From positions 1 to 64,000 of the forward strand of contig NZ_VIRS01000005.1 of the NCBI RefSeq assembly GCF_006912135.1: a stretch of DNA of 64,000 nucleotides. Reading direction: 5' to 3'. Source of the stretch: Cryptosporangium phraense (GTDB lineage: Bacteria > Actinomycetota > Actinomycetes > Mycobacteriales > Cryptosporangiaceae). Within the stretch, counting starts at the first letter, position 1. Each line of letters starts with the position of its first letter. Below the pieces are notes generated by a model. The model was not told where the DNA came from and searched no databases. It worked only from the letters and a program-made list of their open reading frames with translations. Shown in pieces: positions 5,373 to 46,348 of the stretch. Position numbers and translations under genes: made by a program.

Positions 5373-5966
5373 TCACTTGGCCAGGGCGGCCTGGAACACG
5401 ATCACGTCGGAGAAGTTCGTTCCGTCGACCTGGTACGCGTAGCAGCCGGGGCCGCTCACCATCGTCGTGGCCGGGAAGTCGTTGTCCTTTTCGGTCAGTA
5501 CGAAGCGGTATCCACCGGCCACGTGCTCGGCCATGTCGAAGAGCTTGGCGAACGCGGTGCCCGCGCCGTCGATCCGGGCCGCCCGCACCAGCAGCGGCCC
5601 GGTGTAGCCGACGCCCAGCCAGCGCACCTTCTTGCTGTAGGTGCCGTCCGGGTTCTTGTCTTCGGGAGTCAGGGTGAGCGTCGCGCCGGCGCCGTCGAAG
5701 TAGTACGCGATCGGGGCCACCGGCCCGCGGCCGAGGACCTTCTGGCCGTCGTCGTAGGCGATCGAGCTCTTCACCGCGCGTTCGCCGGTCATCGGGCAGG
5801 GCGCACCCTGGGCCACCGTCGGCAGATGCAAAGCCGGAACCTGCGCCGACGCCGACGCCGACGCCGAGGGCGACGGGGCCGGCGGCGCGGGTTTCGGGTC
5901 GCTCGAGCAGGCGGCGACGACGAAAAGCAACCCGCTGAGCAGCACGACCCCGACCCGACTCCTCAT
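5373..5966 (-). CDS. secreted lipoprotein of unknown function
   Basis: The 197-aa protein starts at ATG 5966 (MRSRVG). A lipoprotein signal peptide ends in LLFVVAAC with the lipobox Cys at ~20, followed by a Pro/Ala/Ser-rich tether. The mature domain has several Cys residues (PCPMTGE and GPGCYAY), a possible disulphide. No recognisable family beyond extracytoplasmic lipoprotein. An upstream in-frame ATG at 6002 would place residues before the signal peptide and is not preferred. Confidence 0.8.
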   Translation of the reverse strand: MRSRVGVVLLSGLLFVVAACSSDPKPAPPAPSPSASASASAQVPALHLPTVAQGAPCPMTGERAVKSSIAYDDGQKVLGRGPVAPIAYYFDGAGATLTLTPEDKNPDGTYSKKVRWLGVGYTGPLLVRAARIDGAGTAFAKLFDMAEHVAGGYRFVLTEKDNDFPATTMVSGPGCYAYQVDGTNFSDVIVFQAALAK

Positions 5967-8682: not shown

Positions 8683-9624
8683 CTGCGCGAACGCCTCCTT
8701 CAGCTCGGGTGGGCCGATCACCTCGACGTCGACGTCGAACCGGCCGAGCGAGGACGCGATGCTCGTCCAGGACCAGCCGCCGAGCGTCAGCCTGCACCGG
8801 TCGGGGCCGAGTTCCTCGACGAGCGCGTCGCCCGCGAACGTCGCGACGCGCGCGGCCGGGGCGTCCAGAATCACCTCGGCCCGCAGGGGCCAGCCGGCGA
8901 ACCCGCCGTCCCGGGAGGGGGTCTCGTCCGCGCCGCGGAAGCGGCGGGCGACGAACGCGGCGACGTCGCCACCGGGGAGCTCGCGGGGAGGAAAGCGCGG
9001 GCCGGTGGGGGTGCGGGGGGTGATCCGATCGGCGCGGAACGTGCGCCAGTCGGCGCGGTCGAGGTCCCAGGCGACGAGGTACCACCGCCGTCCCCAGGTG
9101 ACCAGGTGGTGGGGCTCGGCCCGGCGCGGGGGCGTCGGTTCCGCCGGGGCGCCGTAGTCGAAGCGGAGAATCTCGCGGGCGCGGATCGCGTCGCCGATCG
9201 CCAGGAGCACGGCGGTCTCGGCCTGCGGGGCCGGCCCCGGGGACACCGCGGTGACCTCGAGGCCGTCGATCCGGTGCCGGAGCCGGGACGGCATGACCTG
9301 GCGGACGGTGGCCAGCGCCCGGGCCGCCGCCTCCTCGATCCCGGCTCCGGACGTGACCGCCAGCCGCAGCGCCACCGCGAGCGCGACCGCCTGCTCGTCG
9401 TCGAACAGCAGCGGCGGCAGCTGGGATCCGGCGTCGAGGCGGTAGCCGCCGTCCGGTCCCTTGGTCGCCTGGATCGGATACCCCAGCTCGCGCAGCCGGT
9501 CGACGTCCCGGCGCACGGTCCGCGGGCTCACGTCCAGACGCTCGGCCAGCAGCATCCCGGGCCAGTCGCGGCGCGCCTGCAGCAGCGAGAGCAGCGAGAG
9601 CAGCCGGGATGAGGTAGGAAGCAT
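8647..9624 (-). CDS. WYL-domain transcriptional regulator (YafY/DeoR-like)
   Basis: The product has 325 aa from ATG 9624. An N-terminal HTH (residues ~1-60: LLSLLQARRDWPGMLLAERL then DVSPRTVRRDVDRLRELG) precedes a WYL ligand-binding domain with WGRRWYLVAWDLDRADWRTF and a C-terminal WCX-like region. Such proteins sense nucleic-acid-type or small ligands. The gene is divergent from the winged-helix gene at 9687; the inverted repeat between them (9644-9668) is a candidate autoregulatory site. Confidence 0.9.
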   Translation of the reverse strand: MLPTSSRLLSLLSLLQARRDWPGMLLAERLDVSPRTVRRDVDRLRELGYPIQATKGPDGGYRLDAGSQLPPLLFDDEQAVALAVALRLAVTSGAGIEEAAARALATVRQVMPSRLRHRIDGLEVTAVSPGPAPQAETAVLLAIGDAIRAREILRFDYGAPAEPTPPRRAEPHHLVTWGRRWYLVAWDLDRADWRTFRADRITPRTPTGPRFPPRELPGGDVAAFVARRFRGADETPSRDGGFAGWPLRAEVILDAPAARVATFAGDALVEELGPDRCRLTLGGWSWTSIASSLGRFDVDVEVIGPPELKEAFAQLAGRFAAAAGQ

Positions 9625-29270: not shown

Positions 29271-30002
29271 GTGACGAATTTCAGCGTCGACGTGCATTCT
29301 CTGTCCTATCGCGAGGGCGATTCCCAGTTCACCGGGCTGCTGTACCGGCCCTCGGCGCCCCCGGGCGACCGTCCGGGAATTCTGTTGTTCCACGGCGGCG
29401 CGGGCCTCGACTCGCACGCCCAGCAGCAGAGCCGCCGGTACGCAGAACTGGGCTACACCGTGTTCGCCGCGGACCTGTACGGCGACGGAACCGCCGGCGA
29501 TCGGCAACGCATCCTGGCCCAGGTGACGGCCCTGCGAGACGATCCCGACCTGCTGGCCGCCCGCGGCCGGGCCGCGCTGGCCGCCGCGCCCCAGGTCGAC
29601 GCGTACGCCGTGATCGGATTCTGCTTCGGCGGCCTGGCCGCACTCACCCTCGCCCGCGCCGGGGCCGAGCTGGCCGGCGCCGAGCTGGCCGGCGTGATCA
29701 GCGTCCACGGAACGCTGACCACCAGCGCTCCGGCCGAGCCGGGTGCGGTCACCGCCCGCGTCCTGGTCTGCCACGGGGCCCGGGATCCGCACGTACCGAT
29801 GGCGCACGTCGAGCAGTTCGCCGCCGAAATGGACCACGCCCGGGCCGACTGGCAACTGAACGTCTACGGCGGCGCCGAGCACGGCTTCACCCACGAGCAC
29901 GCCACCCCCGGAGCGACTCCCGGCGTGTCCTATCACCGCGACGCCGACGCGCGGTCGCACGCCGACATCCGCGCCTTCCTCGCCGACGTCCCGGCCCGCT
30001 GA
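29271..30002 (+). CDS. dienelactone hydrolase family protein
   Basis: The product has 243 aa from GTG 29271; TACATT lies 6 nt upstream in a short AT-rich stretch. The alpha/beta hydrolase triad is Cys (VIGFCFGG), Asp (CHGARDPHVP) and His (GGAEHGFTH). DLH enzymes open enol-lactones or cleave related esters in the cytoplasm. The 194-bp gap before it (29077-29270) holds no gene. It is convergent with the response regulator at 30026. Confidence 0.92.
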   Translation: MTNFSVDVHSLSYREGDSQFTGLLYRPSAPPGDRPGILLFHGGAGLDSHAQQQSRRYAELGYTVFAADLYGDGTAGDRQRILAQVTALRDDPDLLAARGRAALAAAPQVDAYAVIGFCFGGLAALTLARAGAELAGAELAGVISVHGTLTTSAPAEPGAVTARVLVCHGARDPHVPMAHVEQFAAEMDHARADWQLNVYGGAEHGFTHEHATPGATPGVSYHRDADARSHADIRAFLADVPAR

Positions 30003-32701: not shown

Positions 32702-33606
<905 letters not shown>

Positions 33607-33731
33607 GTCTCGAGCGTCGCGGCTCCGGGAGCTGGCGGGCATGCACCAGGAGGGCGGGGCCGGAAGGACCCGGGGGTCCTCCATCCGGAGGACTCAGGGT
33701 TCCTTCAGGTCGGCGCCGGTTACCTGGACGG

Positions 33732-34547
33732 GTGCGAGACGTGGCGTTGGTGCTGGCGATCGCGGCGGCCGTGGCCTACGGGGCGGGCTCGCTGCTGCAG
33801 GCGGTGGGGGCTCGGCGGGCCCGCAGCACGGTGCTCGTGTGGCGGGAACCGGCGTATCTGGCCGGACTCGGGCTGGACGGAGTGGCCTGGCTGTTGTCGC
33901 TGGTCGCGCTGCGGACGCTACCGATCTACCTGGTGCAGACGGTGCTGGCCGGGTCGCTGGCGGTGACCGCCCTGGGGGCGCGGGCGTTCCTCGGCACCGT
34001 GCTGCGCCGGGCCGACGGAGGGGCGATCGCGGTCACCGTGGTGGGGCTGGCGCTGCTCGCCGGGGCGTCCGGGACGCAGACGGAGGGCGGGTTCTCCACC
34101 GCGGTCTCCGTGGTGGTGGCCGCCTCGGCGGTCGCCCTGGCCGCGGCCGGCTGGTGGACGGCCCGGCGCGCGCGGGCCGGGCGGGAGTGGGCGGTGGTCG
34201 GGTGCGCCGTCGTGGCCGGAGCCGCCTTCGGCGGCGCCGCGATCGCGGTGCACGGAATCACGGTGGGCGGGAGCTGGCCGGCCGAGCCGGCGGTCTGGGC
34301 GCTCGTCGTCTTCGGCGTGACCGGTGCGCTCCTCTACGCCGCCGCGCTCGAGCACGGGAACGTCGCCCGGGTCACCGCCGTGCTCTGGACGGTCGAGGTC
34401 GTCGTCCCGTCGAGCGTGGGGTTCGCGTGGCTCGGCGACACGGTCCGATCGGGCTGGATACCGGCCGCGGTGGCCGGCTTCGCGCTGGCGATCGCGGCCG
34501 CCCTGGTCCTGGCCGGCTCCCCGGCCCAGGAACCCGCGACGGCCTGA
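33732..34547 (+). CDS. multi-pass membrane protein of the DMT/EamA-like group
   Basis: The product has 271 aa from GTG 33732, with TTACCT 6 nt upstream. About nine to ten hydrophobic helices are visible, opening VALVLAIAAAVAYGAGSLLQ and including YLVQTVLAGSLAVTALGARA. The pattern resembles drug/metabolite transporter or NIPA-like proteins of actinobacteria. No substrate can be named. It borders the island: only 9 bp separate its stop from the convergent SLOG gene. Confidence 0.82.
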   Translation: MRDVALVLAIAAAVAYGAGSLLQAVGARRARSTVLVWREPAYLAGLGLDGVAWLLSLVALRTLPIYLVQTVLAGSLAVTALGARAFLGTVLRRADGGAIAVTVVGLALLAGASGTQTEGGFSTAVSVVVAASAVALAAAGWWTARRARAGREWAVVGCAVVAGAAFGGAAIAVHGITVGGSWPAEPAVWALVVFGVTGALLYAAALEHGNVARVTAVLWTVEVVVPSSVGFAWLGDTVRSGWIPAAVAGFALAIAAALVLAGSPAQEPATA

Positions 34548-34556
34548 CCTCGCGTT

Positions 34557-35033
34557 TCAGACGCGGCCCGCGCCGACGGGCCAGACGACGCGAGTCTCGA
34601 TGCCCCGCGCACGCGCGTACGCGACGATGTCACCGGTGCCACCCAGCCCCGCCGCCGGGGCGCCGTCCCACACCGCGAGGAGCACGTCGGACGAGTCGAC
34701 GATCGCGTGCCCGGCCGCGAGGTACGCCTCCTCGGACGGCGTCGGGTACGCGAGCACGCGGTGCTGCTGAGCCCGGGCCAGCAGCCGGTCGTATTCGGGC
34801 CGGTCGTCGTCGGCGAACGTCGTCCGGTATCCCGCACTCGGAACGACGACCCTCAGGCTCCCCCGGCAACGGAGCACCTCGCGCGCGAAGAGCTGATCGG
34901 CCCCGACGGCCAGGCTGCAGATCCCGACCAGTGGTTCACCGACCTCCGCCAGCTCGGCGCGGAGTGCGCTGACGACCAGACCGACGGTCGGCGCCGAGAG
35001 CGATTGGTGGCCGGTGAATCCCACGATCGTCAC
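34557..35033 (-). CDS. SLOG-like nucleotide-sensing domain protein
   Basis: The product has 158 aa from GTG 35033, which overlaps the caspase stop as GTGA. The opening VGFTGHQSLSAPTVGLV, the ICSLAVGADQLFAREVLR segment and VDSSDVLLAVWDGAPAAGLG form the Rossmann-like SLOG pattern (YspA/YpsA-related). Family members bind or process nucleotide-derived ligands and recur in bacterial conflict systems. Tight coupling to a caspase suggests it senses a signal or tunes the protease. No catalytic role can be proved from sequence. Confidence 0.7.
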   Translation of the reverse strand: MTIVGFTGHQSLSAPTVGLVVSALRAELAEVGEPLVGICSLAVGADQLFAREVLRCRGSLRVVVPSAGYRTTFADDDRPEYDRLLARAQQHRVLAYPTPSEEAYLAAGHAIVDSSDVLLAVWDGAPAAGLGGTGDIVAYARARGIETRVVWPVGAGRV

Positions 35034-36034
35034 AGGGCATCCCGCCGCGCCAAGTCCCAGAAGTACTGGCCTATCGGGGTCAGATACACCTCGCCGCCCT
35101 CCAGCGCTACCCAGTACAACGCTCGTCCTTCGTCGGTCGTGAGCAAGTTTGCATTGCGCAGCCGCCCGAAGTAGTCGAACTGCTGTTGCTCCGCCGTTCC
35201 CGTCAAGCCCGGGGGGAACGGTCGCCCCTCACCCTCGTGGTCCGGGCTGAGCCGGACGCGCGCTTTGGCCTTGGGAAAATGCTGCGGCAGTTCACGCAAC
35301 AGCTCGACGTCCAGCCACGGCCGCCCCTCGCGGAGAACGGTCGGCTCGGTCAGATGCGCCTTGAGCAGTGGGCGCTGCGCCCACGCGTCGAACGCCGCGC
35401 TGACGAACTCGTACAGGCCGAGCCCGGTGATCCGGCCGAGATGATCGGTCGCACCGCCCTCCAGGCCGGCCAGCAAGACGCGGGTGAACACGCCGTGGCC
35501 GCGAGCCTCGCCGACCGGCTCGGTCGGCCGGCTCGCGGTCATCACCACGACGTTCTCCCGCAGCACCGCGACGCCGTGCCGGAACTGCTCGGCGATCGAG
35601 AGCGGCTGCAGCGCGGCGACGTTCCCGACGTCGCCGCTGTAGCAGCAGTCCAGGATGATCGTGGCGCTCCGCGCGGCCGAGCCGTTCGCCAGCGTGATCA
35701 GGTCGTTCATCGACACACCGGGGCTGTTGTGGGTGCCGTCCTGCGTCATGAGGTCCGCGCCCCACGCGGTCTGGCCACCGTGACCGGCGAAATAGAACAG
35801 CAGGTCATGGTCACGCGAGTTCGCGAACAGCCGCCCCAGTTCGTCGCGCAGGAGGCCGCGCGTCACGCCGCCGGGATTGGTCGCGGTGCCCAGTAGCACC
35901 TGCACGGTGAAGTTCCGGCTGCCGTCGTCGTTGCGCCTCAGGAGCTCCGCGACCGCCTCCGCGTCGGCGACGCATCCGCCCAGATTCGTCATGGTCGGGT
36001 AGTGATCGATGCCGACCGCTAACGCACGCTTCAT
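35030..36034 (-). CDS. caspase-family (clan CD) protease, probable defence effector
   Basis: The product has 334 aa from ATG 36034 after a GGGGGGA ribosome binding site. The peptidase C14 p20 pattern is complete: MKRALAVGIDHYPTMTNLGG, FYFAGHGG (catalytic His85) and ILDCCYSGD (catalytic Cys131). The C-terminal ~90 residues (QFDYFGRLRNANLLTTDEGR then VYLTPIGQYF) look like a small winged helix, perhaps an adaptor. No signal peptide, so it acts in the cytoplasm. Operon order HerA-NurA-caspase-SLOG suggests a death effector released by the ATPase/nuclease sensor. Confidence 0.88.
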   Translation of the reverse strand: MKRALAVGIDHYPTMTNLGGCVADAEAVAELLRRNDDGSRNFTVQVLLGTATNPGGVTRGLLRDELGRLFANSRDHDLLFYFAGHGGQTAWGADLMTQDGTHNSPGVSMNDLITLANGSAARSATIILDCCYSGDVGNVAALQPLSIAEQFRHGVAVLRENVVVMTASRPTEPVGEARGHGVFTRVLLAGLEGGATDHLGRITGLGLYEFVSAAFDAWAQRPLLKAHLTEPTVLREGRPWLDVELLRELPQHFPKAKARVRLSPDHEGEGRPFPPGLTGTAEQQQFDYFGRLRNANLLTTDEGRALYWVALEGGEVYLTPIGQYFWDLARRDAL

Positions 36035-36077
36035 GAGATCCCCCCGCTCTTAGTGTGTCAGCGAATCTGCGAGCTCC

Positions 36078-37499
36078 TCAGCGATGTGGCCAGCGAGGCG
36101 GTTGCGGCGGCAGCGCAGTGGGGCGAATTCCCAGCGTGACCTGGGCATGAGTCCGTAAGACCTCGCTGCCGATTCCCACTGGCAGGCTCGCGTAGTTGTG
36201 CGCCAGGGCAACCGGGATCACGGCGTCCTCGTAGAGTCGCGTGCCGACGGTGTCCAGAAGATCCACCGTGGTGCGTAAGGTCGGATAGGCGTTCCGATTC
36301 ACCGCGAGGCGGTCATCGGTGACCGTCCCTCCGGAGAGACGCGGCACGGCGAAGACGTGCACGCGGCCGTCTTGCGTGCGGTACAGGAAACGCCGCCCGA
36401 AGTCGGTGTCTTTCCCGTATGCGGAAGCCGGTCCGGGAACAACCCAGCGCCGAAGATATCCGTCGGGCAGCTCGACGAGGGTGCCCGGTGGTAGCAGGTC
36501 GAGGCTTGCCAGCTGATGGGCGTGGTCGACGAGCACGCCGGTCTTCTGCAACCCGAGAATGGGGGGACTCTTCCATCCTCGTCGCGTCGCCGTCTCGTGG
36601 ACGGCCTGGAGAAAACGCTCCGCGCCTCGTTTGAGGTCGGCCGCGGCACCGTGCACCGACAGCGGGCCGTCGAGAATGAAGGCCGTGTGCTGGTACTCAC
36701 TCCCCTGCGCGAAGCATCGGATGAACCAGAGAAAGACCAGAACCTCGACGACGTTCATCAGCCTTCCGAGCACGGTGAGGTTACTGCCCTCCGGGGCGAC
36801 CTCGAGGTGCAGCTGAAGGACGTCGGTCGGATAGATCGGCTCCCGACAACTGGGGCAGGAAATTGCCGCCGAACCGACCCGATGGGGTCCTTCGCACCCG
36901 CACGACGGACACTTCCGCACCTCGAGGAAGGCGGCCGGCGCGTCGGGGGTGCCCGGCCACACGTGAAGCAACACGTCGGTGAGCGACGCGAGGTCGTCTT
37001 CGCTGTCCCCCATCCGGCTGGCACGAAAGATGGTGTCGACAGCTTGCCGGATAGCCGCGGGCTGGTCCTGCCCGTCGCGATAGTTGATCACCGAAGTCGG
37101 AATGACGCTCTTCAGCACATAGCCGACCGCCGCCCGGCCGATCTCCCGAGGATCCACGAATCGATCCGCCGGCGGTGCGAGCATGCGATTCAGGTCGACA
37201 TGGGCAACCGCTACCTGCAGATAGCCGACGCGCGCAGCGGGGAAATCTGGAAGAACTTCCACCTCGGCCGGACTGCCGTCCACGGCGACGGCTCGGCTGG
37301 TAGCCCGGCCGACCAGCGGCAGATCCAGCCGTGACGTTCGTAGGGCGCCGATGTCGTCCTGGATCCGATCGCGGGCCATCGCCCGGTCCGGAAGGTTCAT
37401 TCCTTTGAGTGCCGCGGTCACGGCAGGGTCGACGATCAGGCCGCGATGATTGAGCCGATCGGCGCGCTCGTGGTTGCCTGACTCGTTCACGTACGGCAT
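36078..37499 (-). CDS. NurA-like nuclease with inserted zinc ribbon
   Basis: The 473-aa protein starts 6 nt after the HerA stop. The NurA pattern includes VAVDGSPAEV (metal-binding Asp74), VAHVDLNRML and FILDGPLSVHGAAAD (Asp277), plus a later LQKTGVLVDHAH. Between them residues ~197-218 form a four-Cys ribbon (CPSC and CPSC), a likely zinc site. NurA is a Mn-dependent 5'-3' nuclease that works with the HerA hexamer on DNA ends. Bacterial HerA-NurA pairs are often anti-phage. Identification rests on motif order and the adjacent HerA gene. Confidence 0.78.
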   Translation of the reverse strand: MPYVNESGNHERADRLNHRGLIVDPAVTAALKGMNLPDRAMARDRIQDDIGALRTSRLDLPLVGRATSRAVAVDGSPAEVEVLPDFPAARVGYLQVAVAHVDLNRMLAPPADRFVDPREIGRAAVGYVLKSVIPTSVINYRDGQDQPAAIRQAVDTIFRASRMGDSEDDLASLTDVLLHVWPGTPDAPAAFLEVRKCPSCGCEGPHRVGSAAISCPSCREPIYPTDVLQLHLEVAPEGSNLTVLGRLMNVVEVLVFLWFIRCFAQGSEYQHTAFILDGPLSVHGAAADLKRGAERFLQAVHETATRRGWKSPPILGLQKTGVLVDHAHQLASLDLLPPGTLVELPDGYLRRWVVPGPASAYGKDTDFGRRFLYRTQDGRVHVFAVPRLSGGTVTDDRLAVNRNAYPTLRTTVDLLDTVGTRLYEDAVIPVALAHNYASLPVGIGSEVLRTHAQVTLGIRPTALPPQPPRWPHR

Positions 37500-37505
37500 G
37501 CGGCC

Positions 37506-39674
37506 CTACCGTCGTCCGTCGAAATCATCGCTGCGGAGATCCTCACGATGAGTCGGCGCAGCCGGTCCGAGCGCGTCACCGGACGGGAGTCCGGACGGGA
37601 CGACTCGCGCGGCCTCGGCGGTCGTCCGAGCCGCACCGATCATCTCGGCATCGAACTTTGCGATCTGCACCGGCACGATGTAACGCCCGCTCATGGTCTT
37701 CATGCGCACGAAGCCACGATCTTCGCTACCGCGGATCGCATCGCCGAAAGACTCGAAGTCGTAATACTTCGACAACTCGTTGACCTCATGTTTGCTGTTG
37801 AGGTGGGCCACGACCCAGTTGTAGGTATTGCTGAGCACTTCGTCGGCGACGGAGCGAACTTCCTGAGTGGCGTACATCAACCCGATCTTCAACTTGCTCG
37901 CCGTGCGCGCCAGCAGGACGTACGGGTCACGTTCCTGACTACCGAACTTCGACTTCTCGAAGAGCGTGTGCGCCTCTTCGATGACGATCTGCATCTTCGG
38001 CGGATTCTCGTTCTGGCGGAATACCTCACCTCCGCGGTCCAGCACCTCCATGATGATGCGCTCGGAGATCGCCTGCAGCACCGACTGCGTGCCGCGCGAA
38101 AGCTCGACGATGACGATCCTGCCCTCGGCGAGTTCGTTGTAGATCTCGACCGCGAAGTTACCGCTGGCATGCTGGTTGTGGAACGGCTCGACGTCTCGCA
38201 TGCGGGCGATACCGGCGCGGTTGGTACTCGACTCGAAGACTGACATCACCGCTTGAGTTTGTTCCTCACGCAGCCAGTAGGCGATCGTCTGCCGGTCGGT
38301 GTTGGGACCGTCGTCGCGATGCTTGACGAGCCACTCGCAGACGTTGATCAGGTCCTGCCTCGACTCGATGCGAATCGAGCCACCGTCCAGCTTCACGATC
38401 GTGGCGCCGGTTTCAGCGATGATCGCGTCAGCGATGCGAGCCGCCATCTTCAGCGTGTACGACCAGCTCCTGGGCAGGCGAAAGTTCGCCTTGGCGAGGA
38501 GCGCATAGAAGAACATGCGGGCCCGTGCGATGTGCTGCTTCGCGCTGTCGAGCGCTCGCGCGTCCGGGTAGTCGGCGGGATCCGGATCGGAGAGGTCGGC
38601 GCTCACGAATCGAGTGATGTACTTCGCGTTACTCGTGCCGGCCAGTAGCACGTCGGCAATGACCTGCCGGGCCGGCTCGAGCATCTCCCGATCGAAGAAA
38701 TTCAGCTGCAGGGCCCGACCGTCCTCGCCGAACCGGAGCCCGTAACGATAGATCGACACATGTTCGGCGCCCAGGTCCGCCAGCGCGGTTCCGTCCTGCT
38801 GGTTGACGTTGGCGTACTCGCCCTGAGGATCGAACAACAGTTGCCCGATCCGTTCGCCGTTCTCCGAGGCGTGCCGGAAGACAGCCGTCGTCAGCGTCTT
38901 GACGGTGTTGGACTTCCCGGTACGCGTCATGCCGAAGATGGCGGTCTTCTGCTCGATGAAGTCAGTGACGCGGACCGCGACCGGCACCTCGTGCTCACTG
39001 CGCAATTTGGCTCGTCGACGCGTGCTCGCGTAGCGAACGTGTCCGATCGGGAGCAGTTGCGGAGCCGCCCCCGACTCCGCCTCCCCTTCGGTGACCGACG
39101 GATACGACGCAATGACCTCGAGCGCGGCAGCTGACGGCTTGTAGACGCGGTAGGACGTGGCGGCATAGATGTTGTCCAGGTCGCTGCCGAACGCCAGATA
39201 AGGGACCTGATTCGACGTGATGTCGGCGTAGAAGGTCCCCAGGATGCGGCAGCGCAGACCGCTGTACTGCATCCGGTCGCGGGTCAGGTTGTCGATCGGA
39301 ACGGCCGACGAGTCGAGCGTGAGGGCAGCCGGGTCCGGCGCCGCGTCACCCCAGACGGCCTCGTGCCGGGCCGCCGCCTCACGGATCTCGGTCAGCTCGG
39401 CCTGTCGGGGTATCGGAGCGGTGCCTTCGACGCGGAGAAGCAGCACCTCGTCGTCGTCCGGACTGCGTGCGGGCACGCCCGCCTCGCGAACCGTGGCCAG
39501 CAGAAAGCAGAACTCCGGAATCCCTCCGACGTCTCGCTTCCAGGCATCGTTGGTGATGACGGTCGCCCCGCGGAAGTCGATATCGAACACACGGCCGACG
39601 TTTTTGCCGTCGAGCAACACGTTGAGCGGATTCGCCTCCGCTTGAGCACGAGCGGATCCGATCGGCATCGCCAT
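37506..39674 (-). CDS. HerA-like DNA-translocating ATPase
   Basis: The 722-aa product starts at ATG 39674 after a GGGGGA sequence. An N-terminal HAS-barrel-like region (LNVLLDGKNVGRVFDIDFRG) precedes the FtsK/HerA ATPase: Walker A FGMTRTGKSNTV (~248-258), LLFDPQGEYAN, Walker B MQIVIEEAHTLFEK (~561-573) and the arginine-rich closing segment. HerA hexamers pump DNA and feed NurA. First gene of the HerA-NurA-caspase-SLOG unit. Base composition is visibly less GC-extreme than in flanking operons, which suggests acquisition by transfer. Confidence 0.9.
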   Translation of the reverse strand: MAMPIGSARAQAEANPLNVLLDGKNVGRVFDIDFRGATVITNDAWKRDVGGIPEFCFLLATVREAGVPARSPDDDEVLLLRVEGTAPIPRQAELTEIREAAARHEAVWGDAAPDPAALTLDSSAVPIDNLTRDRMQYSGLRCRILGTFYADITSNQVPYLAFGSDLDNIYAATSYRVYKPSAAALEVIASYPSVTEGEAESGAAPQLLPIGHVRYASTRRRAKLRSEHEVPVAVRVTDFIEQKTAIFGMTRTGKSNTVKTLTTAVFRHASENGERIGQLLFDPQGEYANVNQQDGTALADLGAEHVSIYRYGLRFGEDGRALQLNFFDREMLEPARQVIADVLLAGTSNAKYITRFVSADLSDPDPADYPDARALDSAKQHIARARMFFYALLAKANFRLPRSWSYTLKMAARIADAIIAETGATIVKLDGGSIRIESRQDLINVCEWLVKHRDDGPNTDRQTIAYWLREEQTQAVMSVFESSTNRAGIARMRDVEPFHNQHASGNFAVEIYNELAEGRIVIVELSRGTQSVLQAISERIIMEVLDRGGEVFRQNENPPKMQIVIEEAHTLFEKSKFGSQERDPYVLLARTASKLKIGLMYATQEVRSVADEVLSNTYNWVVAHLNSKHEVNELSKYYDFESFGDAIRGSEDRGFVRMKTMSGRYIVPVQIAKFDAEMIGAARTTAEAARVVPSGLPSGDALGPAAPTHREDLRSDDFDGRR

Positions 39675-39982
39675 CCCGTTCCCCCTTCACCAGTGCCGGA
39701 TCCCTGTCGACCGCAAGCGCTGGAGCGTAAACGTGGTATGCAGAAATGCTGCCCGCTGACTTCCCCCTGGCGAGCCGTAGTGTTCCACAGTGGATCAACG
39801 ACGTCTGAGCCGCGCGCTTTTTCCGACCCGAATCGCCCGAACGGTCAGCGTTTCTGGATGCTCGGTACAGATCCTTCCGGGTCGGAACTTCTACTATCCA
39901 CACTGGAGACGAGCGCGCTGGTGCACCCTGAGAGAGGGCGATACCGTGTGACGATGAGCGGTACGGCCGACTAGGAGCGTGC
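39675..39982. promoter_or_regulatory. divergent control region of the island
   Basis: This 308-bp AT-richer gap separates the leftward HerA operon from the rightward methyltransferase and must hold both promoters. A TACGCT -10-like element reads leftward at ~39724-39729. An imperfect dyad TACCG-N12-CGGTA lies around 39942-39963. No secure gene: a 78-codon frame beginning near 39738 lacks a ribosome binding site. Confidence 0.4.
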
Positions 39983-41050
39983 GTGGAAGACGGCGGGGAT
40001 GGCCCACCAGAGCAACCGGTGGCCCGACGCACCCCCTGGGATCCTGACGACGTCAGGAACAAGCCGGGGCCGATTGAGAACGAGAGCCAGTTCGCGCAGT
40101 CCGTGGTGAGCCCTCTTCGCTATCCCGGCGCCAAACGCCGGCTCGTTCCCGCCATCGAGACCATCGTTCAAGGGAACGTCCCCCCGCCGCGCCTCATGAT
40201 CGAGCCCTTCTGCGGCGGCGCGTCGACGGCCCTGCGGCTCGTCGGAACGGGCGTCGTCGAACACGCGATCCTCGCCGATTACGACTCGTTGGTGGCGTCG
40301 TTCTGGCGCACCGCCGTCTTCGATACGGCCTGGCTGATCGACGCGATGCGGGATGAGGAGATCACGGTCGCGCGGTGGGAGTGGTGGAAGCAAGCCAGCC
40401 CGCGGACCGTGCGCGATCAAGCCCTCAAGTGCCTGTTCATGAACAGGACGACCTTCTCGGGAATTCTTCACGGGCGAGCGGGCCCGATCGGCGGAAAGAA
40501 GCAGACCGAGACGACCAAGTACAAGATCGACTGCCGGTTCAACAAGGCGACGCTGGCCGAGCGCATCGAGGCCATCGGCAAGCTGGGCGACACCGGCCGG
40601 ATCCTCGACGTCTGGACCTCGGATTGGCACGAGACTCTGTCCCGGATCGGCCGTGACTATCGCCCCCGGTTGGCACCCGACGAAATTCTCGTGTACTTGG
40701 ATCCACCATACGTCGACAAGTCCGAATTCCTGTACCACCTGGCTTTCGACGAGAAGCAGCACAGTGATCTCGCCGCGACGTTGAACGGTGCCGATACCTA
40801 CCGCTGGATTCTGTCGTACGACGACGACCAGGTGGTGCGGGCGCTCTACCCGGTAACGGGAGGCCGGCGGGTCTTGCACGCCCGTCATCAGTACAGCGCG
40901 GCCGCACTCAAAGCGCGAAACGATACGAAGGGTCGACGTCAGTCAAGGGTCGAATTACTGGTCACGAATTTTCCCGATGTACCGGAGTCGGACCGGTACC
41001 ACCCGGTGGACGATTCGTCGTGCGACATCTGCGAGGGACGTTCGCCATAG
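39983..41050 (+). CDS. D12-class DNA adenine-N6 methyltransferase (Dam-like)
   Basis: The product has 355 aa from GTG 39983, with AGGAG 7-11 nt upstream. The D12/Dam order is clear: SPLRYPGAKRRLVPAIE (motif X, ~44-60), LMIEPFCGGASTALRLV (SAM motif I, ~71-87), KCLFMNRTTFSGI and VYLDPPYVDKSEF (DPPY at 240-243). It would methylate adenine N6 in host DNA. Placed divergently from HerA-NurA, it may mark self DNA so that the nuclease or caspase arm acts only on unmodified invaders. Recognition sequence unknown. Confidence 0.92.
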   Translation: MEDGGDGPPEQPVARRTPWDPDDVRNKPGPIENESQFAQSVVSPLRYPGAKRRLVPAIETIVQGNVPPPRLMIEPFCGGASTALRLVGTGVVEHAILADYDSLVASFWRTAVFDTAWLIDAMRDEEITVARWEWWKQASPRTVRDQALKCLFMNRTTFSGILHGRAGPIGGKKQTETTKYKIDCRFNKATLAERIEAIGKLGDTGRILDVWTSDWHETLSRIGRDYRPRLAPDEILVYLDPPYVDKSEFLYHLAFDEKQHSDLAATLNGADTYRWILSYDDDQVVRALYPVTGGRRVLHARHQYSAAALKARNDTKGRRQSRVELLVTNFPDVPESDRYHPVDDSSCDICEGRSP

Positions 41051-41149
41051 GTTGCTGGTGCGTTGTCCACGAAGGTTCGCGGTGTTGGGGGCTGACTGCG
41101 GCGATCCCGGTTCGTCCAGCCTGGTGGGTGGGGTGCTCTAGGCAGGGTG

Positions 41150-41510
41150 GTGGGCTGTTTGCCGGATCTGGTGAGAGCGCGCAGGTTGACCGATGAAGCT
41201 GGTCCGCCGGGGTCGGAACCCGATCCGGGTGTGATCCACCGGTTCAACGAGGTCGAGCTCAAAGCTCGGGACCCTCGGTGGGCGGGAGGCCGTCCCCGCC
41301 GTTCACGCGGTGGAGCCTGCGGAAACTCGCCGCACCGCCGTTTCGCGTTGCTAATCCCTCGCCGGGGACCGCCTCTGGGGCGTGCTGCGCCGCCGCAAAG
41401 GCGGCGACCCCAACCACATCGCGCTGGCCCAGGGCCTGCACCGATACCTACCACCAACGCCCGACGTTCTGGCAGCACAACGGCGCGAACCAGAATGGTC
41501 AACGCATCAG
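41150..41510 (+). pseudogene. remnant of an IS630-family transposase
   Basis: Three fragments in different frames read like one IS630 transposase. GVIHRFNEVELKARDPRWAG is near 41230-41290, FTRWSLRKLA near 41300-41330, then LWGVLRRRKGGDPNHIALAQ and TPDVLAAQRRE up to ~41490. The catalytic DDE core is missing, so the element has internal deletion and frameshifts. It lies between the methyltransferase and the TIR-WD40 gene and marks past mobility at the island. Confidence 0.65.
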
Positions 41511-42904
41511 TCACCGAGGAGCCGCCACACGCGGACGGTCTCGTCGTGTGCGCTCGCGCTAGCCAGCAGAGTGCCGTCCGGACTGATCGCAACGGAGGAA
41601 ATCGCAGCCCGGTGGCCGGTCAGGGCGTCGTGGGCCGGCTTACCCGTGGCCGGATCCCACAGCTCAATGGCCCCATCCGAACCTCCGGCGGCCAGGACGC
41701 TCCCGTCCGGGCTGAACGCGACCGTGAACACTGCTTCGTTCTGCCCGGACATCGAGTCGCCGATCGGATCGCCCGTCACTGGGCGCCAGAGCCTCACCGC
41801 CCCATCCGTGCCGGACGTCGCCAGGGCGCTCCCGTCCGGATGGAACACCATCGACGACACCGGCGTGCCGACCGGATACGCCGGCCGAGCAGCCGGCCTC
41901 GGGCTGTCGGTACGCCAGACTCGTACAGTTCCGTCGGTACTGGCACTCGCGAGAAGTTCTTCCTCCGGGCTGAACGCCACCGACACGACGGAGTCACGGT
42001 GGCCGATGCGCGGATTCCCGACCGGCCTGCCGCTGGCGGGGTCCCACAGCCTGACCGTTTGATCGGTGCCGGCCGTAGCCACCAGGCTGCCATCAGGGCT
42101 GAAGGCCACCGACATCACCCAACCCCCATGGCCGCTGAGTGGTTCACCAACCGGCCTTCCGAGCACCGGATCCCAGAGCCGCACAGTTTTGTCGGTGCCG
42201 GCCGTAGCCACCAGGCTGCCATCAGGGCTGAAAGCCACCGACATCACCCAACCACCATGGCCAAGAAGCGGCCCGCCGATCGGCTCGCCGGACGCCGGAT
42301 CCCACAATCTGACCGCCCGGTCGTGGCCGGCCGTTGCCAGCAGCGTTCCGTCCGGGCTGAAGCAGAGGGACTCGACCGCGCCGACATCGCCGGCCAGGGG
42401 ACGGCCGTACCGGCCTGGCGCGAGGCGCTCGAGCAAGGGAGCGTCTGCCGGTCGGCTCTGGTCCGCGGTCGTCAGTGCGCGCGACCCAATTGGCGGCTGT
42501 TCGATGACCTGAGCGAAGAAGTCGCTGGTAGGCAGACGGCCATCGAGCACCTCCTCGTAGTGCACACCGGTGAGCCGGAGGGGAATTCGGCAGTCTTCGA
42601 GAAGCAACGGCAGGACTGGCTTGTCTTGGCCGAGCGCATAGAGGAACTCGTCGATGACCCAATCGGAATCGACTGCCGCCGGCGTCAAGACGACGATGAG
42701 CGCATCGCAGGCGTCGATGCGATTCTGCGTCTCGCGCATGTAGCGGGCACCCGTGCGGAGCTGCTGATCCCACCAGGGCGATATGCCCTCTGCCGCCAGG
42801 TGGGCGGCGAGCTTCTCGACGTACTGCCGATCGCGCCGGTTGTAGCTGATGAACATCGAGGTACCCGGTCGCGCGTCACCGGCGGCCCGTTGTGATGGTG
42901 TCAC
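41507..42904 (-). CDS. TIR-domain protein with C-terminal seven-bladed WD40 propeller
   Basis: The product has 465 aa from GTG 42904, which overlaps the RecQ stop as GTGA; ATG 42856 would give 449 aa. The TIR domain covers ~1-120 of the shorter form: [20 protein letters not shown], then [20 protein letters not shown] with the catalytic-type Glu70 in SxWxxxE. Seven WD40 repeats follow (~130-449), such as [20 protein letters not shown]. Bacterial TIR domains cleave NAD+ or make signalling nucleotides; the propeller would recognise a partner or invader protein. A defence role is inferred from domains and island context. Confidence 0.88.
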
Positions 42905-44724
42905 CCGGCCAGGACCTCCAGGATCTTCTCCCCGTACCGGGCCAACTTGTTCTCCCCCACGCCGCTCACCTGGCTCAACTCGGCCAGCGACGCCGGCCCG
43001 TCGGTGACGATCTGGCGGAGCGTCTTGTCGTGGAAGATGACGTACGGCGGGACGTTCTGTTCCTTCGCGGTGGTCGCCCGCCAGGCCCGGAGCCGCTCGA
43101 AGACCTCCTGGGCCTCGGGCGCGAGGTCGGCGACCGGTTCCTTCTTCCCGGCGCGCCCCGACGATCCGGACGACTTCGCCGGCCTCTCGGGCTCGCGGCG
43201 CATCATGACCTTGCGCTGCCCGCCCAGCACCGGGCCGCTGCCGTCGGTCAGCACCAGGACGCCGTACTCGCCCTCCACCGCGAGCAGACCTTGGGCCAGC
43301 AGCTGACGCACGACCCCGCGCCACTGGGGGTCGCTCAGGTCGGTGCCGATGCCGAACACCGTGAGCTCGTCGTGGCGGTACTGGCTGACCTTCTCGGTGC
43401 GCCGGCCGAGCAGGATGTCGATCGACTGCCCGGCCCCGAACTTCTGGCCCCGCTCGCGCTGGAGCCGGAGCACGGTCGAGAGCAGCTTCTGGGCCGGAAC
43501 CGTGCCGTCCCAGGACTCCGGCGGCTCCAGGCACGTGTCGCAGTTGCCGCACGGCCCGCTGCCCTCCTGCCCGAAGTACGCCAGCAGCCGGGAGCGTCGA
43601 CAGTCGACGGTCTCGCAGAGCGCGAGCATGGCGTCCAGATGCTGGGCGAGCATGCGGCGGTGGGCCAGGTCGCCCTCCGAGCCGTCGATCATCTTGCGTT
43701 GCTGGACGACGTCCTGCAGGCCGTAGGCCAGCCAGGCCGTGGACGGGAGGCCGTCGCGCCCGGCGCGGCCGGTCTCCTGGTAGTAGCCCTCGACGGACTT
43801 CGGCAGGTCGAGGTGGGCGACGAACCGCACGTCGGGCTTGTCGATGCCCATGCCGAACGCGATCGTGGCGACGATGATCAGCCCGTCTTCCCGCAGGAAC
43901 CGGGCCTGGTTCCGCGCGCGCGTCCGGGAGTCGAGCCCGGCGTGGTACGGGAGCGCGGCAATACCCTGCGACACGAGGAACTCGGCGATCTTCTCCACCG
44001 ACGCCCGGGACAGGCAGTAGACGATGCCGGCCTCGCCGTCGTGCTCGGTGCGGATCAGGTTGAGCAGCTGCTTGCGCGGCTCGGCCTTGGGCGCGATGCG
44101 GTAGCGGATGTTGGGCCGGTCGAAGCTGGCGACGAAGTGCCGGGCGTCGTCGAGGTTGAGCCGGGACGCGATCTCGGCGTGGGTGCGCGAGGTGGCGGTG
44201 GCGGTCAGCGCGATGCGGGGCACGTCGGGCCAGCGCTCGTGCAGCATCGAGAGCGCGAGGTAGTCGGGCCGGAAGTCGTGGCCCCACTGGGCGACGCAGT
44301 GCGCCTCGTCGATCGCGAACAGCGCGATCGTGCCCTTCTCGAGCAGGCGCATCGTGCGCGACTCGCCGCCGGCCAGCGCTTCGGGGGCCAGGTAGAGCAG
44401 GTCGAGCTCGCCGGCCAGGAACGACTTCTCGACCGCCCGCCGCTCCTCGAGATCCTGCGTCGAGTTGAGGAAGCCGGCCCGGACGCCGAGCGCGGTCAGC
44501 GCGTCGACCTGGTCTTGCATCAGCGCGATCAACGGCGAGATGACGACGCCGGTGCCCTCGCGGACCAGCGACGGGATCTGGTAGCACAGCGACTTGCCAC
44601 CGCCGGTGGGCATCAGCACCAGCGCATCGCCACCGCCGATGACCTGCTCGATGATGGCCTGCTGCTCGCCCCGGAAGGCCTCGTAGCCGAACACCCGCCG
44701 CAGTACGTCCAGAGCCCCGTCCAC
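42901..44724 (-). CDS. recQ: RecQ-family ATP-dependent DNA helicase
   Basis: The product has 607 aa from GTG 44724, chosen because TAGTAT lies 7 nt upstream; TTG 44754 is possible. The order is: Walker [22 protein letters not shown] box in [20 protein letters not shown], helicase motif [15 protein letters not shown], zinc-binding Cys set ([11 protein letters not shown] with GPCGNC), winged helix, and an HRDC domain at the end. It unwinds 3'-5' DNA in recombination and repair. Its stop overlaps the TIR-WD40 start, an unusual coupling. The -10 overlaps the TAG stop of the ligase gene. Confidence 0.95.
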
Positions 44725-44734
44725 GCGGGCGATA

Positions 44735-46348
44735 CTACGAGCCCCCGCCGACAATCCGCTCGCTCTCCACAGCCGCGGCGATACGGCGGGCCAACGCCTT
44801 CTTGTCCAGCTTGCCCACCGCGGTCTTCGGCAGCGCCGGAACCCACTCCAGTCGCTCGGGCCACTTGAACTTGGCCACGCCCAGCCCTTCCAGGAAAACC
44901 TGCAGGTCGGGCAGCGACACCTCCGACCCGACCAGGTACGCGCACGACCGCTCGCCCAGCCGCTCGTCGGGCATCGCCACGATCGCCGCCTCCCGGATCG
45001 CCGGGTGCCGCAGGACCAGCACCTCGACCTCCTCGGCGCTGATCTTCTCGCCGCCGCGGTTGATGATGTCCTTCAGCCGCCCCTCGATCGACAGCGCGCG
45101 CTCCGGCCCGAACGTCCGGACCGCGACCAGGTCACCGGTCCGGTAGAACCCGTCGGACGTGAACGCCACCGTGTTGATCTCCGGCGCGTCGTAGTAGCCC
45201 CGCAGCGTGTACGGGCCCCGGCAGGCCAGCTCACCCACCTCCCCGTCGGGAACCACGGTCTCGGACGACGGGTCGAGCACGCGGAACTCGTCCAGCGGGG
45301 AGATCGGCGTCCCGACCGTGGTCAGCCGGGCCTCGCGGGGCGCCCCCGAAGCGCTCAGCGCGAAGAACCCCTCCCCCATCCCGAACAACTGCCCGGCCCA
45401 GACGCCGAACGCCTCCAACGCCGAGAACAGCGGCAGCGGCACCTTGGCTCCCGACAGCACGACCCGGCGCAACGACGGCACCACGGCCGGGAACGCCGGA
45501 TGCGCCACTGCCCCGTAGTGCCCGTGGCCGAACAGCACGTCGGTGGCCCGTTCGGCCGCCAGCAGCGGCAACGCCTCGTCCAGCCCCGGCGACGTGAGCA
45601 CCAGGCACCCGCCGACGCTGTGCGGCGCGTGCACCCCGCAGACGATGCCGGCATTGTGGACGATCGGGATCAGGTGCCCGTTGCGGGTCGTCTCGTCCCA
45701 GCCGGACGCCTCGGCGTAGGCCCGCGCGTTGTACCAGTACTCGGCGTGCAGCCGCGGTATCACCTTCGGCACGCCGGTCGTGCCGCCGGAGAGCTGGAAC
45801 GCGGCCACGCCGTCGGGGTCGAGCGACGACTGGATCCGGTCGACGACCTTCCGGGCCAGGGCGTCGTCGTTCCCGGACGGCAGCGCGTCCAACCGGAGCA
45901 GCGTTCCGATCCCCAGCCTCCGCGCGAACTCCACCAGGTCGAAGCGGCCCCCGGCTTCGACCAGGTGCGCCGCCGCCCCGGTCTTCCCGGCGATCGCCCG
46001 GATCTCGTACTCGCGGTGCGCGGTCAGCGTGCAGACCGGGACCAGACCGGCCTTGAGCAGCCCGTACCAGGCCACCACGCTCGCCAGCCGGTTGCCGATC
46101 TGCAGGACGACCCGGTCGCCCGGCGCCAGCCCCAGCTCCACCAGCCCGAGCGCGAGCCGATCGGCCCGCCCGTCCAGCTCGCGGTAGGTCAGCCGGCCGT
46201 CGGGCGCCACCACCGCGTCCCGATCTCCGAACCGCTCCGCGATCGACCGGAACTCGGCCGCGATCGGCCGCGTGCCCCAGGCCCCGGCCGCGCGGTAGCG
46301 CGCAACGACGTCGTCGGGGTACCGGATCACGCCGTCGGTCCAGGTCAT
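44735..46348 (-). CDS. aryl-AMP/CoA ligase of the DhbE/EntE-like ANL group
   Basis: The 537-aa protein has [20 protein letters not shown] (core motif typical of 2,3-dihydroxybenzoate or salicylate AMP ligases), [54 protein letters not shown] and the C-terminal Lys in [13 protein letters not shown]. It adenylates an aromatic or cyclic acid. A divergent salicylyl-CoA-type hydroxylase supports an aryl-acid substrate. It shares the control region 46388-46417 with that gene. Confidence 0.88.

Follow-up and report, generated by a model that had tools for sequence, protein, structure and literature searches.

An acquired-looking island of five genes in Cryptosporangium phraense, analysed here within a window of 64,000 nucleotides, is likely to hold two defence modules side by side. 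Module A, formed by a HerA-like DNA motor, a NurA-like nuclease and a DNA methyltransferase, is conserved as a unit and is probably a restriction–modification-like system, whose activities we infer. Module B pairs a caspase-like protease with a small SLOG protein and is read here as the effector part of a TIR–caspase system resembling type IV Thoeris. The original prediction had joined all five genes in a single system; as a conserved unit this is rejected, the two modules occurring together in 2 of 27 HerA–NurA loci (the window and locus L027).

All five genes are real, with the coordinates and strands first proposed, and the four on the minus strand are as tightly packed as had been described: HerA and NurA are 6 bp apart, NurA and the caspase 43 bp, and the caspase and SLOG genes overlap by 4 bp. 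The HerA and NurA genes had been said to be less GC-extreme, and G+C contents of 0.635 (HerA), 0.660 (NurA) and 0.639 (methyltransferase) against a window mean of 0.719 agree with this and support an acquired-looking island of defence-type genes. The caspase (0.687) and SLOG (0.730) genes differ in G+C from HerA–NurA; their GC3 of 0.88 is not clearly foreign, because two flanking genes (33597–34547 and 29271–30002) also have values of 0.89–0.90. The insertion-sequence remnant attributed to the island was not recovered, with no transposase match among the three pieces scanned, out of ten six-frame translations of 35 residues or more from 41051–41506, and no terminal-repeat-like pair seen in 33500–43500. 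RecQ is kept in the same-genus genomes G001 and G003, but neither showed the ABC, kinase or regulator genes next to it, so only G002 is informative on the insertion.

The predicted motor of module A is a HerA-like DNA translocase of 722 residues (37506–39674, minus strand), which matches Pfam DUF87/HerA (E = 1.9e-14) and whose Walker A residues G253, K254 and S255 are invariant in 17 of 17 aligned sequences, consistent with the HerA-like pump originally named. A profile of 17 relatives reaches TdpA at E = 9.7e-40; the remaining HerA-type chains in the list score no better than 3e-20. HerA is present in 8 of 396 genomes, its own counted, and relatives occur on phages, plasmids and viral contigs; a weak match to a Halorubrum plasmid covers 16% of the query.

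Adjoining this Walker A ATPase is a 473-residue protein with a cysteine (zinc-ribbon-like) insertion (36078–37499, minus strand), confirmed as a NurA-like nuclease through its relatives and the RNase H-like fold of a predicted model. The protein has no confident Pfam match of its own, and 3 of 18 relatives match Pfam NurA at E ≤ 0.01. Its AlphaFold model, with a mean pLDDT of only 69, is matched best in Foldseek by TdpB (8wfd_G, 5e-9) and then by NurA of Deinococcus, Sulfolobus and Thermococcus; the 14 best PDB fold matches are NurA/TdpB or TM1739, an RNase H-like putative nuclease. D74 and the motif D277-G-P-L are invariant in 18 of 18 sequences. In a profile search against PDB sequences a release factor came first (E = 0.0019) and TdpB second (E = 0.023); the release factor matched via a cysteine stretch, and the fold search decided for NurA/TdpB.

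Divergent from HerA, as predicted, is the D12-class DNA adenine methyltransferase (39983–41050, plus strand; Pfam MethyltransfD12, E = 1.3e-13). Its tie to HerA–NurA is the part of the proposed five-gene neighbourhood that stands, while the position of the caspase–SLOG pair beside HerA–NurA does not recur beyond the two joint loci among the 27 opened. A methyltransferase adjoins HerA–NurA in 22 of the 27 loci opened, three being without one and two being cut by a contig end, so that a DNA methyltransferase is linked to the nuclease in 22 of 25 assessable loci; the same profiles found none in 28 control loci (SLOG, caspase or ThsB loci). The enzyme is of the D12 type in 19 of these loci and of the N6_N4 type in three, two families that are not fully apart: the L005 methyltransferase, with 24.0 bits, lies above the D12 cut-off of 22 as well. 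The gene shares 4 bp with the end of NurA in L012, L025, L121 and L123; in L021 the overlap is with the start of HerA. At least two changes of methyltransferase type are needed on the HerA tree, on which two N6_N4 rows sit on long branches with unsure placement. Module A recurs in bacteria, on an archaeal plasmid and in phages; the opened stretch of three cyanobacterial plasmid copies of HerA–NurA has no methyltransferase.

That HerA–NurA acts here as a DNA-repair (end-resection) pair, with the methyltransferase and caspase as unrelated passengers of the island, is highly improbable. HerA–NurA of archaea and Deinococcus have been studied as repair enzymes, going by paper titles, and the fold matches of the model include repair NurA proteins; however, HerA is rare and patchy and is found on mobile and viral DNA, the pair is coupled to two methyltransferase families, and TdpA is a closer relative of the window HerA than is 4d2i, a solved HERA of the archaeal type.

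The putative restriction–modification-like module also differs from the described systems that it resembles. TdpABC is a phosphorothioate-based defence of Thermus, in which TdpC is the phosphorothioation enzyme. TdpA and TdpB (PDB 8wet, 8wfd and 8y1k) are the closest solved relatives of both motor and nuclease, TdpB being the best match by fold and a marginal one by sequence. Unlike in TdpABC, a DNA methyltransferase adjoins the pair here, and no phosphorothioation (TdpC-type) family was matched in Pfam among the seven window proteins scanned. HerA–DUF4297 and Sir2–HerA (Nezha) likewise form a HerA complex with an effector enzyme, according to the parts of PMC12948488 and PMC12977600 consulted, but their effector enzymes are others, and the listed HerA-type chains except TdpA match the window HerA less. 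In PADLOC, the mad8 model of MADS scores 47 bits on HerA and PD-Lambda-5_B scores 213 bits on the methyltransferase; no other MADS or PD-Lambda-5 gene was matched among the six proteins scanned, and no complete system was returned. NCBIfam matches for HerA, the caspase and the methyltransferase all lie below curated cut-offs. The expectation that no named system has this exact set agrees with the lack of a PADLOC or NCBIfam model naming it; no description of it was found in the literature, mostly in titles and abstract openings, and the parts of PMC10952713 and PMC6102401 consulted describe neither module.

In module B, the caspase-like protease of the TIR–caspase family (35030–36034, minus strand) matches Pfam Peptidase_C14 (E = 2.2e-14) and has the intact His/Cys pair that had been noted. 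His85 and Cys131, corresponding to the type IV Thoeris dyad, are invariant in 11 of 11 sequences of a full-length alignment, in which identity to the window protein is 33–66%; a PDB sequence search gave nothing at E = 0.01. Its small partner (34557–35033, minus strand) has no confident Pfam match, and the proposed SLOG (YpsA-like) identity comes from relatives: it is 35–50% identical to eight SLOGs, all from caspase loci, and one relative, annotated DUF1273, matches the YpsA SLOG family weakly, at E = 0.0023 and below the curated cut-off. A structure model built without relatives was unusable (pLDDT 38), and two weak PDB matches to sulfhydrylase (E about 0.09) were taken as chance.

In type IV Thoeris, as described in the parts of PMC12847820 consulted, a caspase-like protease is switched on by N7-cADPR that a TIR makes, and the two genes share an operon. 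Caspase loci here show a similar arrangement: in 11 of the 15 opened, the gene immediately before the caspase codes for a ThsB-like TIR. The caspase follows such a gene in every one of the eight plasmid loci opened, out of 69 matching records, and four of the eight also carry SLOG. Set beside this description of type IV Thoeris, the window differs in having a SLOG gene and no ThsB in the same operon: ThsB has no match in the window, the best tblastn hit (E = 0.083) falling inside a neighbouring TIR-WD40 gene. On another contig of the same genome is a single ThsB-like gene (Pfam ThsB_TIR, 33 bits; cut-off 21.2), with a GC3 of 0.78, where the gene next to it has 0.94; none of the three same-genus genomes showed it, and such a gene is present in 2 of 61 relatives, the own genome counted. 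A weak link in trans to the window pair may be drawn; the encoded protein is 54% identical to the ThsB of L054 and of L074 alike. Caspase–SLOG pairs lacking an intact ThsB also occur in G428, which has a remnant, and in G389, where none was found in a genome 87% complete. A full-length caspase with no ThsB match is present in G002, and because it lies near a CATRA-TIR protein instead, the TIR partner of the caspase can vary.

The TIR-WD40 gene beside the island (41507–42856, minus strand, with the start placed by us at 42856; Pfam TIR_2, E = 2.7e-22, and WD40) may supply the signal or may be an independent conflict gene, the third at this site. That it drives the caspase–SLOG pair in place of ThsB is unlikely. 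It is adjacent in the same island, the TIR partner can vary, and by eye a TIR-like gene adjoins caspase–SLOG in L055 and a TIR-propeller-like gene adjoins SLOG without a caspase in L066; however, it sits on the far side of module A from the pair, and no second TIR-WD40 was noticed beside a caspase in an unsystematic look at the loci opened.

Spacing and recurrence might instead suggest one integrated system, in which HerA–NurA restricts unmarked DNA and the co-transcribed caspase–SLOG pair is a built-in back-up that kills the cell if restriction fails. The caspase lies close behind NurA on the same strand, and the pair meets HerA–NurA–methyltransferase again in L027, though both modules are rare (SLOG is in 16 of 396 genomes, its own counted). 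Set against this are the 2 of 27 loci, the distinct base composition of the pair, the usual position of the caspase after a ThsB-like TIR, and the pair in L027, which has its own ThsB and is located upstream of the methyltransferase. Neither HerA nor NurA lies beside caspase–SLOG in the 14 kb opened of G289, G428 and G389, and G162 has HerA and SLOG on different contigs; we judge an integrated system quite unlikely. Because the two joint loci are widely separated in the HerA tree and differ in gene order, the side-by-side modules most simply met twice. A search of the Vibrio phylum returned 1 of 349 genomes, the starting genome only. There is a small chance that a methyl-marked HerA–NurA restriction machine captured caspase–SLOG on two independent occasions, with the sensor TIR split off to another contig and one effector answering both failed restriction and a nucleotide signal in trans.

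With two modules acting side by side, the methyltransferase would mark the cell's own DNA, and a HerA hexamer with NurA would load on unmarked or broken-ended foreign DNA, pump it and cut both strands; exonucleolytic cutting of both strands is described for archaeal HerA–NurA in the part of PMC12977600 consulted. An ADP-ribose-type signal, possibly made by the one ThsB-like protein encoded on the other contig or by the neighbouring TIR-WD40 protein, would reach the caspase or, as a candidate ligand, SLOG, and the activated caspase would degrade cell proteins in a suicide system like type IV Thoeris.

Most earlier readings of HerA–NurA have been as a repair pair. The conserved HerA–NurA–methyltransferase cassette, with two methyltransferase families in one slot, argues for a role in restriction and gives Tdp a methylation-based counterpart that can be tested. 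SLOG recurs beside TIR–caspase genes and may be that pathway's third component, and loci without a TIR in cis allow testing whether such effectors are wired in trans.

The five open reading frames of the original prediction are all present where it placed them. First in transcription order on the minus strand is the HerA-like gene (39674-37506), followed after a 6-bp gap by the NurA-like gene (37499-36078), after a further 43 bp by the caspase gene (36034-35030), and by the SLOG gene (35033-34557), which overlaps the caspase gene by 4 bp. Divergent from these four, on the plus strand, is the D12 methyltransferase gene (39983-41050). Beyond it are a minus-strand TIR-WD40 gene (41507-42856), which contains direct repeats at 129-bp spacing, and, adjoining it, a RecQ gene (42901-44754) named by eye.

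Pfam supports the HerA-like, caspase and methyltransferase identities. The NurA-like protein itself has no match in Pfam, and is assigned through its relatives, 3 of 18 of which match Pfam NurA, and through its fold: the top match of its AlphaFold model (mean pLDDT 69) is TdpB, followed by NurA of Deinococcus, Sulfolobus and Thermococcus, and the best 14 matches are all NurA/TdpB or the RNase H-like putative nuclease TM1739. Least certain among the five is the putative SLOG protein, which has no match in Pfam, PADLOC or NCBIfam and is recognised from homologues, one of them annotated as DUF1273 and matching YpsA SLOG under the cut-off (E 0.0023).

HerA of this type is rare. Relatives were drawn from genome, plasmid, phage and viral collections; among genomes, matches occur in 8 of 396 of the same phylum (C. 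phraense included), in 8 of 394 of the same class with a wider profile (three being the same genomes as before), and in 1 of 349 of the Vibrio phylum, the starting genome alone. Opening 27 HerA loci, with one weak plasmid match left out, and scanning them with profiles, some built from those same loci, places NurA next to HerA in 27/27 and a methyltransferase next to the pair in 22/27, the independent cases being fewer owing to near-copies (L010/L011, L003/L004, L030/L031 and L006-L008). The other five are three cyanobacterial plasmids with no methyltransferase and two loci truncated at a contig end. Pfam confirms the methyltransferase in all seven loci scanned (the window, L005, L009, L021, L023, L027 and L030), and the methyltransferase, HerA and NurA profiles are unmatched at 1e-5 in 28 control loci, taken for their SLOG, caspase or ThsB genes. 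In five loci (L012, L025, L121, L123 and L021) the methyltransferase gene shares 4 bases with NurA or HerA. On the cyanobacterial plasmids L006, L007 and L008, HerA-NurA lies behind a small HTH regulator, with no methyltransferase match in the opened stretch.

Nineteen of the 22 methyltransferases are D12-type and three (L005, L009 and L027) match best with the N6_N4 family, L005 also scoring just above the D12 cut-off (24.0 versus 22 bits); both families comprise DNA methyltransferases. Mapped onto a 25-row HerA tree, the N6_N4 label requires at least two changes, both N6_N4 rows being long branches of unsure placement; L009 and L010 are excluded because their HerA is interrupted. Restriction-modification would predict such a pattern, with one position taken by different methyltransferases. 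Two Vibrio phages (L010 1309-5751 and L011 1309-5750) carry the HerA-NurA-methyltransferase cassette between integrase and excisionase, and HerA-NurA is found on four viral contigs, with the methyltransferase on three of them. HerA is broken into two ORFs in L010, and on a Deferribacter plasmid (L009 5914-9712) it is split by an IS200/IS605 TnpA-TnpB element.

As a conserved set the five genes do not hold together: HerA-NurA-methyltransferase and caspase-SLOG are adjacent in just 2 of the 27 HerA-NurA loci, the window and L027. The order in L027 is TIR-caspase-SLOG, then N6_N4 methyltransferase, HerA and NurA, and on the midpoint-rooted tree its HerA and that of the window fall into opposite main groups; the simplest reading is that the modules came together on two occasions, each time in a different order and with a different methyltransferase. 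SLOG occurs in 16 of the 396 same-phylum genomes, and in one genome (G162) HerA and SLOG are both present but on separate contigs. Given the rarity of both genes, two adjacencies seem more than chance placement would give; clustering in defence islands would explain them without functional coupling.

Base composition also differs along the island. G+C is 0.635-0.660 and GC3 0.77-0.82 in HerA, NurA and the methyltransferase; in the RecQ, AMP ligase, ABC, kinase and regulator genes GC3 is 0.94-0.96. Caspase (G+C 0.687) and SLOG (0.730) both have a GC3 of 0.88, close to that of two flank genes (33597-34547 and 29271-30002; 0.89-0.90). Of the three same-genus genomes, G002 keeps the RecQ and ABC-kinase-regulator genes in the order of the window, RecQ and ABC being ~3.5 kb apart versus 9.2 kb, and the interval matches no island gene; the other two have RecQ, with no ABC-kinase-regulator genes found next to it. 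The island was thus probably acquired, and caspase-SLOG may have arrived separately. The predicted IS remnant was not found, either in a transposase scan of 3 of the 10 six-frame pieces in 41051-41506 or in a check of 33500-43500 for terminal-repeat-like pairs.

The caspase family is widespread, matching 69 of 72,556 plasmid records. In all eight plasmid loci opened, a ThsB-like TIR gene, identified from the record annotation and with a custom profile, lies directly upstream of the caspase, and SLOG is also present in four. Pfam ThsB_TIR confirms both cis TIRs scanned (L054 and L073). Across 15 caspase loci, chromosomal ones included, ThsB is intact and adjacent in 11, a remnant in L055, and absent in the window, L058 and L112; L027, L054, L055 and L058 come from HerA/SLOG searches that favour SLOG, which biases its rate there and leaves the plasmid rate unbiased. 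The L055 remnant (5475-5633) is truncated and directly precedes an intact caspase-SLOG pair. The L077 caspase is broken, spanning two ORFs. A RyR-like small protein can follow the caspase where SLOG is missing (L078 4487-4771, weak Pfam RyR, E 0.0022; L112 ~9060-9304, by eye), and related SLOG genes in L056, L057 and L063 have nearby what by eye resemble radical SAM genes, in place of caspases.

These loci match the architecture described for type IV Thoeris, TIR plus caspase-like protease, in the accessible text of PMC12847820, and SLOG is often added to it. We saw SLOG mentioned alongside type IV Thoeris neither in the literature searched, primary papers excepted, nor in the available part of PMC10952713. 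The SIR2-SLOG protein ThsA is reported, in the text available, to be activated by cyclic ADP-ribose isomers (PMC11204291), said to be recognised by its SLOG domain (PMC9503650), which makes a ligand-binding role plausible for SLOG here.

The window yielded neither a ThsB-like gene nor a clear remnant of one, the best tblastn match (E 0.083) lying within the TIR-WD40 gene. Elsewhere in the genome, contig 7 carries a single ThsB-like gene (276586-277020; L090 8587-9021), next to a ribonucleotide reductase-looking gene; 18 kb around it contain no caspase, SLOG or HerA match. Its GC3 is 0.78 versus 0.94 for its neighbour, and ThsB-like matches occur in 2 of 61 relatives, this genome and G008, where two copies adjoin the caspase; none occurs in the three same-genus genomes. 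A system split between caspase-SLOG in the window and ThsB on contig 7 is thus possible. What speaks against this is that G428 and G389 retain caspase-SLOG without intact ThsB, that G002 has a full-length caspase and no ThsB match, and that the contig 7 sequence match is unspecific (54% to L054 and to L074). Near the G002 caspase is a CATRA protein with a CAP12-type TIR (L112 5131-6600).

The view that no named system fits is supported for HerA-NurA-methyltransferase, a set that no PADLOC or NCBIfam model names. HerA operons may be discussed in Iyer 2004. We recognised no description of the set in the literature searched, which leaves subscription papers mostly outside its scope, or in the accessible text of PMC10855626, PMC7251087, PMC12977600, PMC11291478, PMC10853773 and PMC6102401. 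The closest solved relatives are TdpA for HerA by profile (9.7e-40, the others 3e-20 or weaker, among the matches listed) and TdpB for NurA by model fold. Tdp is a HerA-like/NurA-like pair coupled to phosphorothioation. For archaeal HerA-NurA, exonucleolytic cutting of both strands is described and a defence role suggested (PMC12977600, in the part available). We rate caspase-SLOG as a variant member of TIR-caspase immunity, and HerA-NurA-methyltransferase as an apparently new variant of the HerA-NurA/Tdp kind, in which the methyltransferase would mark self DNA and HerA-NurA would degrade DNA that is unmarked or broken-ended.
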